The notes below the pieces were generated by a model. It made no database searches, was not told the DNA's origin, and saw nothing but the letters and a program-made list of their open reading frames with translations. Of a DNA stretch of 64,000 nucleotides, positions 52,259-60,855 are shown piece after piece. This DNA is from Parvibaculum indicum. GTDB lineage: Bacteria > Pseudomonadota > Alphaproteobacteria > Parvibaculales > Parvibaculaceae. The DNA lies in contig NZ_JAASQO010000001.1 of the NCBI RefSeq assembly GCF_011762095.1, forward strand, positions 186,001-250,000, read 5' to 3'. The position numbers and the translations under genes were made by a program. Each line of letters starts with the position of its first letter. Position 1 is the stretch's first letter.

Positions 52259-53116
52259 TCAGCGAGAGGTCATGACGATGCGGCCCTGCCCGGCGAGATC
52301 GCCGCTGCGGCAGATGAGAGAGGACTGCGCCGAACAGGGGGCGTAGTAGAGACGCAGCAGATCGCCGTCCAGCGTCATGTCGAAACAGTCCCGGGCGCCA
52401 TACTGGATCTCCGACGAGCTGAAGCAGAAACGGTTGTTCTCGATCCACCATTTGCCCGACCCGGATTTGTGCTTCTCGCTGGAATATTCCTTCAGATAGT
52501 TCGTGGCGAGATACTGGGTCAGTTCCACGTCCATGCTGCCGTCGGCATCAAGCTCCAGCGTCATGTTGATGAGCTTGTTGGAGCCCTGCCGTTCGATACG
52601 GCCCATTTCGAGCTTCAGGGTCTTGCCCACCATATGCGAGCGGATCTGCCCGCCGGTCAGCGCATTGCCCTTGCGGTTGAGGATCGTCTTCTTCGCGTCG
52701 CCCCCGGCGCCGCCGCCCTTGCCGCCTTCCACGCCGTTGCCCGCGGAGGCCTGCGGCTCTTCCTGTGGTTCGGGCACGGGTTCGGGTTTCCTCTCCGGCT
52801 TGGGCAGGGGCTTGTCCGCCTTGCGCACGGCCTGCTCCGGCTTGGGCTTGGGCGGTTCCGGTTTCACTTCCGGTTTCGGTTGCGGCTTCGCGGCCGCCTT
52901 GCGCGGACGCGGCGCGGCATAGCGGTCGTTCATGGAACCCGCGGCAAGCTGGAACGTCACGGAATCGCCGCCGCCGGGCCCCGGCCCGCCGAAAATGCCG
53001 CCCGCCATGGTGAGCCACAGAAACAGAGCCAGATGCAGCAATGCCGCCGCGACGAGAAAACCGCGCAGGCGCGGCTCCGGAACGGCGGTCGCCTTTTCGT
53101 CCCACGCCACGCTCAT
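52259..53116 (-). CDS. TonB-like energy-transducer with atypical C-terminal domain
   Basis: A 285-residue protein with TonB-like build: a short cytoplasmic start, one membrane helix (about residues 19-39, FLVAAALLHLALFLWLTMAG), then a periplasmic Pro/Lys/Glu-rich arm (residues 65-125). The C-terminal 130 residues do not show the TonB fold motif (YP...A...G.V). They read KLEMGRIERQGSNKLINMTL, then GKWWIENNRFCFSS and later strands, with Cys231, Cys244, Cys261 and Cys269, recalling small lipocalin-like or DUF995-type domains. It overlaps exbD2 by four bases. Likely partner of the ExbB-ExbD pair; target unknown. Confidence 0.7.
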   Translation of the reverse strand: MSVAWDEKATAVPEPRLRGFLVAAALLHLALFLWLTMAGGIFGGPGPGGGDSVTFQLAAGSMNDRYAAPRPRKAAAKPQPKPEVKPEPPKPKPEQAVRKADKPLPKPERKPEPVPEPQEEPQASAGNGVEGGKGGGAGGDAKKTILNRKGNALTGGQIRSHMVGKTLKLEMGRIERQGSNKLINMTLELDADGSMDVELTQYLATNYLKEYSSEKHKSGSGKWWIENNRFCFSSSEIQYGARDCFDMTLDGDLLRLYYAPCSAQSSLICRSGDLAGQGRIVMTSR

Positions 53117-53529
53117 GAACTACGCTCCGTCAGCAACGTCACCTGCTGCACGCCCGCGCCGCGCAGTCCCTCCATCAGCGTCAGCACACTTTCGGCAGGC
53201 GCAGCCTGGTCGGCCTTGATGGAGACGCGCGACTTGTCCTTGTCCTTCATGAAGTCCTTCAGCATGAAGCCCGCGAGCGAGGGCTCCATCACCTGATCGC
53301 CGACCCAGACGAACCCGTCCGACTCAACATAAAGCGTGACCTTTTGCGGCGGCGCCGGATCGTCGATCGTCCCGCTCGGCAGCGTCACGCCTACGTCGCT
53401 GCTCTCGCCCAGCGTGCCCGCCAGCAGAAAGAAGATCAGCAGCAGAAACACCACATTGATAAGCGGGATCGTCGTCTCGAACTCCCGCCGCGGCGCCGGC
53501 GCGCCATCCTGTTCGTCGAACTCGATCAT
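53113..53529 (-). CDS. exbD: ExbD/TolR-family protein with Asn in place of the proton-carrying Asp
   Basis: A 138-residue inner-membrane protein with one N-terminal membrane helix and a periplasmic domain. The helix reads TIPLINVVFLLLIFFLLAG. The residue matching Asp25 of E. coli ExbD is Asn25 here, read directly from the codon AAT. Asp25 is essential for proton flow in ExbD, TolR and MotB relatives, so this copy should not carry protons itself. It overlaps the gene before it (ATGA) and the TonB-like gene after it. Confidence 0.9.
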   Translation of the reverse strand: MIEFDEQDGAPAPRREFETTIPLINVVFLLLIFFLLAGTLGESSDVGVTLPSGTIDDPAPPQKVTLYVESDGFVWVGDQVMEPSLAGFMLKDFMKDKDKSRVSIKADQAAPAESVLTLMEGLRGAGVQQVTLLTERSS

Positions 53530-53942
53530 TGGCCCAGACGCTCCACCCTTGCCGTGCCGACATTCGTCGCACCCGCCTCACGTGCCGCTTCCACCGCGCG
53601 CACCAGTTGCTGCGTATGCGAATCCCGCTCCGCCAGAATGGTCACGGTCATGTCCGTCCGATCGCCGATCTTGTCGCCGACCGCATCGGCCAACCCTTCC
53701 GGGGAAACCGGATCGCCGTCCACGCGCAGCGACCCGTCTCCCATCAGCCAGATCTCGACCACGCGGGCATCCTCCGGCAGTTCCTTCCGGTCGGCCGCCG
53801 GGGTTACCACGGACAGCGCCTGCGTCTGCAGGAAGCTCGTGGTGAGCATGAAGAAGATCAGCAACTGAAAGACGACGTCGATCAGCGGCGTGAGACTGGT
53901 CATCCGCCGCCGCCGAACCGGTACGTCGAACGTATCTGCCAT
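53526..53942 (-). CDS. exbD: ExbD/TolR-family biopolymer transport protein
   Basis: A 138-residue proton-channel partner of ExbB. The single membrane helix carries the canonical SLTPLIDVVFQLLIFFML, with Asp22 as the expected proton carrier. A basic stretch (RRRRM) precedes it on the cytoplasmic side. It overlaps exbD2 by four bases and starts 26 bases after exbB. As it differs in sequence from exbD2, the two could form a heterodimer in the ExbB pentamer. Confidence 0.95.
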   Translation of the reverse strand: MADTFDVPVRRRRMTSLTPLIDVVFQLLIFFMLTTSFLQTQALSVVTPAADRKELPEDARVVEIWLMGDGSLRVDGDPVSPEGLADAVGDKIGDRTDMTVTILAERDSHTQQLVRAVEAAREAGATNVGTARVERLGQ

Positions 53943-54961: not shown

Positions 54962-55501
54962 ATGAAAAACGGGGGTAACCCGATGGCAGGAGCCAAGGGG
55001 GAACGCATCGAGGCGGCACTGTCCGGCGATGCCGGACATGAAATGTCCGCCGCCTATTTCGGCCAGCTGCTCGGCGCCGTGGGCGAACAACTCAGCCAGC
55101 TCTACGACGACGCCACGGGCCTCACGCGAAACCAGAACCGCATCCTGGTCGCCCTCATGCGGGAGGACGGCCTCACCCAGACCGAAATCGCGCACCGGCT
55201 CGACATGCACAAGGTTTCCGTCGGCCTGCACATTGCGGAACTGGAAGCGCTGAACCTCGTGGCCCGCGAAGCGCACCCGACCGACGGGCGGGCGAAATGC
55301 ATCCACCTGACCTCCCACCTGAAAACGCAGGTGCCCCACGCCCAGCAGGCTTTTGCCCGCATCCATGCCACCGCAACCGAGGGCATCGCCCCCCATGATT
55401 ATCTGACGATGATCGACTGCCTGTCGCGGATGCATGACAATCTGGCGCGGATGAATCAGGCGGAAGAAGACCTCCCCGCCGCGACGAAACAGGGCGCGTA
55501 A
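54962..55501 (+). CDS. MarR-family transcriptional regulator
   Basis: A 179-residue winged-helix regulator. The DNA-binding core is NQNRILVALMREDGLTQTEIAHRLDMHKVSVGLHIAELEALNLVAREAHPTDGRAK (residues about 57-112 shown here by its elements LTQTEIAHRLDM and HPTDGRAK). Flanking helices form the dimer. Divergent from exbB across 198 AT-rich bases that hold an inverted repeat, so control of the exb operon and itself is a fair guess. Ligand unknown. Confidence 0.88.
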   Translation: MKNGGNPMAGAKGERIEAALSGDAGHEMSAAYFGQLLGAVGEQLSQLYDDATGLTRNQNRILVALMREDGLTQTEIAHRLDMHKVSVGLHIAELEALNLVAREAHPTDGRAKCIHLTSHLKTQVPHAQQAFARIHATATEGIAPHDYLTMIDCLSRMHDNLARMNQAEEDLPAATKQGA

Positions 55502-59002: not shown

Positions 59003-59866
59003 ATGCGGCTGATAGTCGGGCTTTTGGTAGTCATTCTTAGCGTCTTTGGCGGTTATGCCGCGATGGGCGCCCATCTCGAAGTGCTTTTCCAGCCCTTCGA
59101 ATTCGTCATTATTCTCGGTGCCGCGATCGGCGCCTTCGTGATCGGCAATCCGGGTTCGGTGCTGAAATCGATGGGCAAGACCTTCGCCACGCTGGGACGC
59201 GGCTCGCGCTACAACAAGGACGCCTATCTGGAGCTGCTCGGCCTCCAGTACACGCTGTTCAAGCTCGCCAAGAGCAAGGGCAATCTCGCGCTGGAAGCCC
59301 ATGTGGAAAATCCCGGCGATTCCTCGATCTTCGCCCAGTTTCCCGGCTTCGCAAAAGACCATCACGCCGTGGAGTTCATGTGCGACTACCTGCGCATGAT
59401 CACGCTGGGCACGGAGAATGCCTACGAACTCGAAGCGCTGATGGACGAGGAACTCGAAACCCACCATCAGGAACAGGAACGCATGGTCAATGCGCTCCAG
59501 GCGCTGGCCGACGGCACCCCCGCCCTGGGCATCGTCGCCGCGGTGCTGGGCGTCATCAAGACCATGGGCTCCATCGACCAGCCGCCGGAAGTGCTGGGCC
59601 ACCTGATCGGCGGCGCGCTTGTCGGCACCTTTTTCGGCGTGTTCTGCGCCTATGGTTTCTTCGCCCCGATGGCGCAATCCCTGCGCAACATCTACGAGGC
59701 GGAAGGCAAATATTATCTCTCCATGAAGGCCGGCCTTCTTGCGCATATGGCCGGCTATGCGCCCGCCGTCTCGATCGAATTCGCGCGGAAGGCGCTGATG
59801 TCCGATGTCCGGCCGACCTTCGCAGAGGTGGAAGCCACGACCGCCAACCTTCAGGCAGCCACCTGA
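59003..59866 (+). CDS. motA: Flagellar motor stator protein MotA
   Basis: Proton-driven stator subunit of 287 residues with four membrane segments. Family features are VVILSVFGGYAAMGAHLEVL at the start, the cytoplasmic loop with charged helices, and the Pro-containing third helix DGTPALGIVAAVLGVIKTMG near residue 168, where Pro aids torque coupling. ATG at 59003; motB follows 38 bases later. No other flagellar gene is in the window. Confidence 0.95.
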   Translation: MRLIVGLLVVILSVFGGYAAMGAHLEVLFQPFEFVIILGAAIGAFVIGNPGSVLKSMGKTFATLGRGSRYNKDAYLELLGLQYTLFKLAKSKGNLALEAHVENPGDSSIFAQFPGFAKDHHAVEFMCDYLRMITLGTENAYELEALMDEELETHHQEQERMVNALQALADGTPALGIVAAVLGVIKTMGSIDQPPEVLGHLIGGALVGTFFGVFCAYGFFAPMAQSLRNIYEAEGKYYLSMKAGLLAHMAGYAPAVSIEFARKALMSDVRPTFAEVEATTANLQAAT

Positions 59867-59904
59867 CAACCGAAAGGCGCCCCTGCTGAACGGGCGAAAG
59901 CGGC

Positions 59905-60855
59905 ATGGCCGGTAACGAACAATCGATCATCATCAAGAAGGTCAAGAAACAGGTGCATGCCCATCATGGCGGCGCCTGGAAGATCGCCTATGCCGACTTC
60001 GTGACCGCGATGATGGCCTTTTTCCTGCTGATGTGGCTGATCTCCATGACCACACCGGAACAGAAGCAGGGCCTTGCCGACTATTTCGCCCCGCCCAATG
60101 TCAGCCGCTCCACATCGGGGTCCGGCGGCGTGATGGGCGGCACCGCCTTCGATAGCAACGGCGCCCGCATGCCCGGCTCCAAGCCGCAGGTGATGATGAC
60201 GAAATCGACGCCCGCCGCGCCAAAAAGTCCGGACACGGACGATTTGCGCGCCGCCGCTGCCGGTCAGGGCACGAAAAACGGCGAAAAGGACGACCGTTCC
60301 AGCGCCGAGGCCAAGGAAGCCAGCCTGAACCGGGAAAAAGTGATGAACGCGCGTGAGGAACGCAGTTTCGAAAGCGCGGCCGAAAGCATCCGCCAGGCCA
60401 TGCGCGACAATCCCGACCTCGCCGAGCTGTCGCGCAATGTCATCATCGACGAAACGCCGGAAGGCCTGCGCATCCAGATCGTCGACCAGGATGGCCGCTC
60501 CATGTTCCCGCCGGGCTATGCCGAGCCCTATGAACGCACGCGCCTGCTGTTGAAGACCGTCGCCAAGACGCTTCTGCGCCTGCCCAACCGGATCAGCATT
60601 TCCGGCCATACCGACGCCACACCCTATCCCGGCGACAAGGGCTATTCGAACTGGGAGCTGACCGCCGACCGCGCCAACGCCACGCGCCGCATTCTCGCAA
60701 CCGCGGGCATTCCGCAGGACCGCATCTATCAGGTGGTCGGCAAGGCCGATTCCGAACCGCTCTTTCCCGAAGACCCCTATCTGCCCGGCAATCGCCGCCT
60801 GTCGCTCGTGCTGCTGCGCGAGGCGCCCGTCGCCCCGCCCGGCTTCAAGCCCTGA
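59905..60855 (+). CDS. motB: Flagellar motor stator protein MotB
   Basis: Stator subunit of 316 residues that carries the proton-binding Asp31 in AYADFVTAMMAFFLLMWL, then a linker and plug region rich in Ser, Lys and Glu (residues 65-155). A C-terminal OmpA-like peptidoglycan-binding domain follows, with ISGHTDATPYPGDKGYSNWELTADRAN near residue 232. Co-transcribed with motA. Confidence 0.95.
   Translation: MAGNEQSIIIKKVKKQVHAHHGGAWKIAYADFVTAMMAFFLLMWLISMTTPEQKQGLADYFAPPNVSRSTSGSGGVMGGTAFDSNGARMPGSKPQVMMTKSTPAAPKSPDTDDLRAAAAGQGTKNGEKDDRSSAEAKEASLNREKVMNAREERSFESAAESIRQAMRDNPDLAELSRNVIIDETPEGLRIQIVDQDGRSMFPPGYAEPYERTRLLLKTVAKTLLRLPNRISISGHTDATPYPGDKGYSNWELTADRANATRRILATAGIPQDRIYQVVGKADSEPLFPEDPYLPGNRRLSLVLLREAPVAPPGFKP

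Follow-up and report, generated by a model that had tools for sequence, protein, structure and literature searches.

Can a Ton-type proton motor run on a single acidic residue? The question is raised by an operon of Parvibaculum indicum in the window analysed here, a stretch of 64,000 nucleotides of contig NZ_JAASQO010000001.1, in which two adjacent genes encode ExbD proteins. The first, ExbD1, bears the motif LTPLIDVVF, with D22 as the acid of the proton site; the second, ExbD2, reads IPLINVVF, with N25, encoded by AAT. The transmembrane aspartate of ExbD and TolR proteins is called strictly conserved in a passage of PMC9008036 and absolutely required for activity in a passage of PMC12905483; this conserved and essential residue is present in ExbD1 and absent from ExbD2.

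The operon resembles the E. coli TonB-ExbB-ExbD system in its ExbB, ExbD and TonB-like genes, in the retention of the Asp and of both ExbB threonines, and in the membership of its ExbD proteins in that family by sequence. It departs from that system, in which five ExbB subunits combine with two copies of one ExbD, by having two ExbD genes, the second with Asn, and also by carrying Gln at the Glu176 position of ExbB and a TonB-like protein without TonB_C. Tandem ExbDs as such are already known: the Ton operons of the alphaproteobacterium Sphingobium SYK-6 and of Xanthomonas campestris likewise contain a pair of neighbouring ExbD genes, and in X. campestris both members carry Asp. In Sphingobium SYK-6, unlike here, both ExbDs retain Asp25 and ExbB1 retains Glu176, according to a portion of PMC8599685. 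The AglRQS system of Myxococcus xanthus also combines one MotA-type with two MotB-type proteins, and a passage of a stator review (PMC9389320) leaves it unknown whether these form hetero- or homodimers; AglQ and AglS are both predicted there to carry the conserved aspartate, so that the comparison with AglS recommended in the preliminary description yielded no precedent. Asn at the proton site is met in MotB D22N of the Campylobacter jejuni MotAB stator, which the same part of the review calls protonation-mimicking (PMC9389320), but that is a mutant of a one-gene MotB, whereas here the Asn is natural and confined to one of two genes. What is new is the acid-less second member in a Ton motor; no description of an ExbD pair with one acid-less member was found in the full-text literature searched, most subscription journals lying outside it.

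If the reading put forward below is true, it would represent a stable, evolved one-site design shared by many proteobacterial species, perhaps by hundreds (at least 527 confirmed stretches, with organisms seen for 80). A working pair would offer a natural stator for comparison with laboratory mutants without the acid, and the catalogue of named genomes includes cultured species that possess it, Tepidicaulis marinus and Nisaea denitrificans among them.

The operon and its tandem ExbD genes

On the minus strand the genes follow each other in the order ExbB, ExbD1 (Asp), ExbD2 (Asn25) and TonB-like protein (Table 1). Both ExbD proteins score well above the PF02472 cut-off of 25.4 bits (70.9 bits for ExbD2 and 75.3 for ExbD1), and N25 of ExbD2 aligns on Asp25 of E. 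coli ExbD (6tyi_Y), a column that also takes in the Asp of ExbD1. The sequence, the family match and this alignment thus bear out the initial claim of two adjacent ExbDs, the second with Asn (AAT) at the E. coli Asp25 position. The four-base overlap of the two genes suggests that their translation may be coupled; the corresponding spacing of -4 is the commonest among relatives (74 of at most 151 loci, the ExbD2 start being taken as the in-frame start nearest the ExbD1 stop). A plasmid search gave no match, nor did searches of PHROGs with ExbD2, ExbD1 or ExbB.

Table 1. Features of the Ton-type operon and its surroundings in the window
Feature	Position	Strand	Evidence
ExbB/TolQ-type channel protein, 264 aa	53969..54763	-	Pfam MotA_ExbB, E 1.8e-29; alignment to solved TolQ chains; column analysis
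ExbD1, acid-bearing, Asp22 = E. coli Asp25	53526..53942	-	Pfam ExbD, E 5.7e-21; alignment to 6tyi_Y
ExbD2, acid-less, Asn25 = E. coli Asp25	53113..53529	-	Pfam ExbD, E 1.3e-19; alignment to 7ajq_F and 6tyi_Y
TonB-like protein	52259..53116	-	Weak TonB/TolA matches at residues 20-122 only; conserved C-terminal domain
ATGA shared by the end of ExbD1 and the beginning of ExbD2	53526..53529	-	Sequence
MarR-type regulator, upstream of operon	54962-55501	opposite to operon

A structure model of ExbD2 shows a helix at residues 23-38 followed by alternating strands and helices (mean pLDDT 77.2, pTM 0.49). The retention of this periplasmic domain would fit a protein that acts mainly outside the pore, as an accessory clamp on TonB or peptidoglycan without proton duty, beside a motor built on an ExbD1 homodimer. 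Conservation speaks otherwise, the transmembrane segment being the most conserved part of the protein: among 24 ExbD2 sequences, 10 of the 11 invariant columns fall within it (P22, L23, I24, N25, V27, F28, L29, F33, F34 and G38), the invariance of N25 stemming partly from row selection. This pattern points to a place inside ExbB, and we regard a mainly accessory clamp as distinctly unlikely.

Retention of the pair among relatives

When ExbD2 was searched against 61 genomes (the window genome and 60 relatives), some ExbD match was obtained in 59. The 28 close loci taken from the best matches (L010-L037), a count outside which lie several genomes with weak E-value matches only, all encode ExbB, an Asp-ExbD and an Asn-ExbD, and the closest orthologue of ExbD2 (L010) is 96% identical. 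Since Asn is kept in 28 of 28 loci, a sequencing error or a strain-specific loss, the doubt raised in the preliminary description, is ruled out. The window genome itself holds a second Asp/Asn operon on contig 3, with an ExbD2 36% identical to that of the window. Given the near-identical orthologue, the 28 loci and this second pair, the Asp-then-Asn order is more than chance.

The same order prevails in broader samples. A class sample of 289 genomes, in which an Asn-type ExbD2 was the query, listed hits of any residue were read and array partners were counted as one locus, gave 125 loci. Of these, 44 are Asp/Asn and 12 Asp/Asp tandems, 68 carry a single Asp gene, and one has an Asn gene whose upstream partner is cut by the contig end. 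These counts omit two listed hits of the window genome (L001, a single Asp, and L005/L006, an Asp/Asn pair), and three of the loci (L027, L029 and L035) also belong to the 28 close loci. No Asn-first tandem was seen among the 125, nor any Asn-ExbD alone, the upstream ExbD of one being cut at the contig end. The Asn type occurs in at least 42 of the 289 genomes, the window genome included. A scan of named contigs, whose pattern requires Asn and which therefore informs on pairing only, matched at least 589 stretches, of which at least 527 encode relatives; among the best 80 of these, the gene directly upstream is an intact Asp-ExbD in 79, and in the remaining one the upstream match lacks the transmembrane part. 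Their titles name Parvibaculum, other Rhodobiaceae/Parvibaculaceae and many other Alphaproteobacteria, together with the gammaproteobacterial Halopseudomonas, Thioalkalivibrio, Nitrococcus and Endozoicomonas. A DNA pattern likewise matched 17 of the 398 genomes of a phylum sample: 13 hold genuine pairs (14 loci, all with Asp upstream) and four have no ExbD in the fetched stretch.

Two loci of irregular appearance may be mentioned here. The upstream ExbD match without a transmembrane part (L095) lies close to a contig end, and L048, where both ExbDs stand in one frame, was considered as a fusion; this was rejected, the locus looking like a frameshift.

Among the top 70 listed hits in a sample of 274 gammaproteobacterial genomes there are 17 Asp/Asn pairs (in 16 genomes), two Asp/Ser pairs and 51 Asp-only loci, counts that are lower bounds, as a pair found by pattern in G494 lies outside the top 70. 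The Ser residue (TPLVSVIF) is likewise found in the second ExbD (L292:1501-1845 and L302:1501-1845), and both proteins group with the Asn clade; the two genomes share a genus code, so that they probably reflect one event. The Ser case suggests that what is kept is the lack of an acid and not Asn in particular.

Wherever the upstream gene is intact in the loci read, the Asn copy follows directly behind an Asp-ExbD. This bears on the possibility of two separate complexes, a motor of five ExbB and two ExbD1 and an inert, non-conducting assembly of five ExbB and two ExbD2 that would tune the number of motors or compete for TonB. A single ExbB gene serves both proteins, and each has a full PF02472 domain with which it could in principle homodimerise. 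Against this, an intact Asp-ExbD stands directly upstream in 44 of 45 class-sample Asn loci (the 45th being cut) and of the acid-less copy in 19/19 gammaproteobacterial pairs; such strict adjacency, one-to-one dosage and tight coupling exceed what a loose regulator would need, and separate complexes appear fairly unlikely. A role of ExbD2 as a regulator or decoy would likewise be compatible with conservation taken by itself. Retention of Asn in all close loci, always behind an intact Asp-ExbD, favours a functional mixed pair.

Decay and deamidation are two further readings. ExbD2 might be a dying duplicate, as the loss of a residue held to be essential could indicate, but the protein is found in two classes, with open frames and a conserved transmembrane segment, and decay is scarcely credible. 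Conversion of Asn25 to Asp by deamidation after translation, which would render both sites acidic, is also very improbable: we found no point in its support, the residue that follows Asn is Val in 106 and Ile in 44 of 150 profiled rows, a slow context for deamidation, the Asn should be buried in the membrane, and one genus carries Ser, which cannot deamidate.

The two ExbD types also differ at the residue corresponding to E. coli Thr21: all 150 profiled Asn rows have Leu, Ile or Val there, and Thr stands in 138 of 146 Asp partners and 66 of 68 single ExbDs, one Asn row and two partner rows lying outside the anchor fit. A hydrophobic residue four positions before the Asn was rejected as a universal mark of the type, L278 carrying Thr there (1 of 17 gammaproteobacterial Asn proteins).

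Phylogeny of the acid-less ExbD

An approximate ExbD tree of 349 rows, part of whose Asn rows come from the Asn-selected scan, unites on one branch (support 76) the complete set of 100 Asn rows, the two Ser rows and two of the Asp rows; the remaining 245 Asp rows lie elsewhere. The acid is hence absent in 102 of the 104 rows of this group, the exceptions being L086_1D and L173_2D. A tree of 260 rows places 83 Asn rows and L086_1D in one group (support 75). On 144 rows, in which both L173 proteins are present twice, 49 Asn rows group with L086_1D and the second ExbD of L173 (support 82), and 51 of the 53 Asp partners of the pairs cluster separately (support 78). Acid loss or gain amounts to two changes on the 260 rows and three on the 349. 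The acid-less type therefore has essentially one origin, and its correlations with other traits are not independent. The simplest reading of these trees is that the gene was duplicated in tandem once and that the second copy then lost the acid.

The two Asp proteins within the acid-less clade, the second of L173 and the first of L086, count against the explanation that we prefer, a motor with a mixed Asp/Asn axle. L173 may be a survivor of an earlier state or a reversal.

As for the loci themselves, L173:1533-2322 is an Asp/Asp pair whose second member falls within the acid-less clade, and L086:4010-6135 encodes three ExbDs and one ExbB in the order acid-less-clade Asp copy, ExbB, Asp-ExbD and Asn-ExbD.

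The ExbB channel protein

The window ExbB has Thr178 and Thr212 at the positions of E. coli Thr148 and Thr181, which line the channel of that species near Asp25. Neither position varies in the 140 ExbBs from Asp/Asn operons or in the 69 others of the set. It differs at the position of E. coli Glu176, a residue described as essential but of unclear function in a portion of PMC8599685, where it carries Gln207; this residue falls on the Glu of the solved TolQ chains.

In the class sample, the Glu176 equivalent is missing from 20 of 40 ExbBs of Asp/Asn operons vs none of 67 in Asp-only single-ExbB operons, a comparison that leaves out 12 Asp-only two-ExbB loci (Gln then Lys in 11, Val then Arg in one), one Asp-only locus whose ExbB match is split (with Glu), four Asp/Asn loci with no, a split or a short ExbB match, and the contig-cut Asn locus. 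The column also tops 20 otherwise near-invariant columns of a wider alignment, with no changes among 69 rows vs 23 among 140 (on trees of length 38.7 and 48.5, respectively). The signal was not repeated in Gammaproteobacteria, where Glu is lost in 8 of 19 acid-less pairs vs 11 of 33 Asp-only single-ExbB operons (p 0.56; replaced in the latter by Lys in six, Gln in four and Thr in one). A smaller, earlier cut of that sample had given 8/17 vs 2/21 (p 0.02), with the two Ser pairs counted among the 21. A tie between Glu176 loss and Asp/Asn pairs is therefore mostly rejected, and we have dropped it as support for the mixed pair. An independent-pairs test comprised two pairs only and had no power; within Asp/Asn operons, the 15 strongest associated sites listed all had a median sign-test p of 0.25 or more after correction for relatedness. 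Hydrophobic residues at the Glu176 position, a post hoc comparison uncorrected for kinship, occur in 16/41 and 5/19 acid-less pairs vs 0/67 and 0/33 Asp-only operons.

A different arrangement was noticed in operons where two successive ExbBs carry unlike residues at the Glu176 position (frequently Gln followed by Lys/Arg) and the ExbDs are Asp-only, an asymmetry of the ring and not of the axle. It is found in the class sample at L150, L166, L170, L177, L180, L190, L197, L200, L205, L206, L207 and L212, and in Gammaproteobacteria at L290, L294 and others up to L325.

The TonB-like partner

The TonB-like protein comprises a hydrophobic N-terminal segment with His28, a Pro-rich linker and a beta-rich C-terminal domain with four cysteines, which are invariant in the window and 15 aligned relatives. 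No profile match to TonB_C (PF03544) was obtained for it, and its C-terminal region gave no hit in Pfam, nor any among PDB sequences up to an E of 1. A structure model (mean pLDDT 82.7) bears a weak likeness to lipocalin-like barrels, the best Foldseek E being 5e-3 and none reaching 1e-3. Outside the family of the window, the partners among the rows listed end, by eye, like normal TonB proteins, and that of the second Asp/Asn operon of the window genome carries TonB_C (E 1.5e-16). Taken with the invariant channel threonines, the Asp of ExbD1 and the conserved transmembrane segment of ExbD2, these features make it most likely that the pair drives TonB-type work. The window genome has 15 Plug (PF07715) matches, i.e. 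TonB-dependent transporters, counted genome-wide and none tied to this operon.

A proposed one-site motor

The two ExbDs are distinct, conserved and adjacent, their order is fixed and one ExbB gene serves both. On this sequence basis, we consider it probable that the operon specifies a 5:2 proton motor of the Ton type, in which ExbD1 (Asp) and ExbD2 (Asn) pair as an obligate heterodimer to form the axle within one ExbB pentamer. The motor should be live, because the Asp of ExbD1 and both channel threonines of ExbB are kept and the transmembrane segment of ExbD2 is strongly conserved.

ExbD2 would take the second place of the axle with a permanently neutral side chain, akin to a site locked in the protonated form, and proton uptake and release would fall to ExbD1 alone. 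Published models work with two sites, and those in a passage of PMC12215075 hypothesise a 36 degree rotation of the dimer per proton. If the two ExbDs pair, the genes predict unequal sites on the axle, in place of the two equivalent ion sites of 5:2 rotary motors; where only one side chain is acidic, the ten-fold cycle would become five-fold, with one proton per 72 degrees and five per turn, the cycle would pass through a state in which no site is charged, and a doubly charged state would be impossible. ExbD2 could in addition provide a fixed face of the axle for binding of the TonB-like partner. A natural 5:2 motor of this kind, combining a heterodimeric axle, a single acid, five protons per turn and a neither-site-charged intermediate, is a tentative proposal with a little short of an even prospect of being right.

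Such an axle requires that rotation be possible with both sites neutral. This holds in the Santiveri model, which a passage of PMC9389320 describes as permitting rotation solely in the doubly protonated state; Figure 6 of that review, by contrast, gives a simple scheme in which this state is locked (PMC9389320), and a one-site motor would not run under it. ExbD D25N of E. coli is described as an inactive mutant in a passage of PMC11658791, which shows that a homodimer does not tolerate a neutral site without harm and counts against the proposal. A fixed handedness, which the preliminary description had offered as one possible outcome of an asymmetric axle, does not follow, as in the published turnstile model the direction is set by the helicity of the ion paths and not by the presence of two sites, according to part of the stator review (PMC9389320).

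About 4 kb from the Ton-type operon, the window also encodes a MotA/MotB stator pair (59003-60855), the MotB of which retains its Asp (YADFVTAMM).
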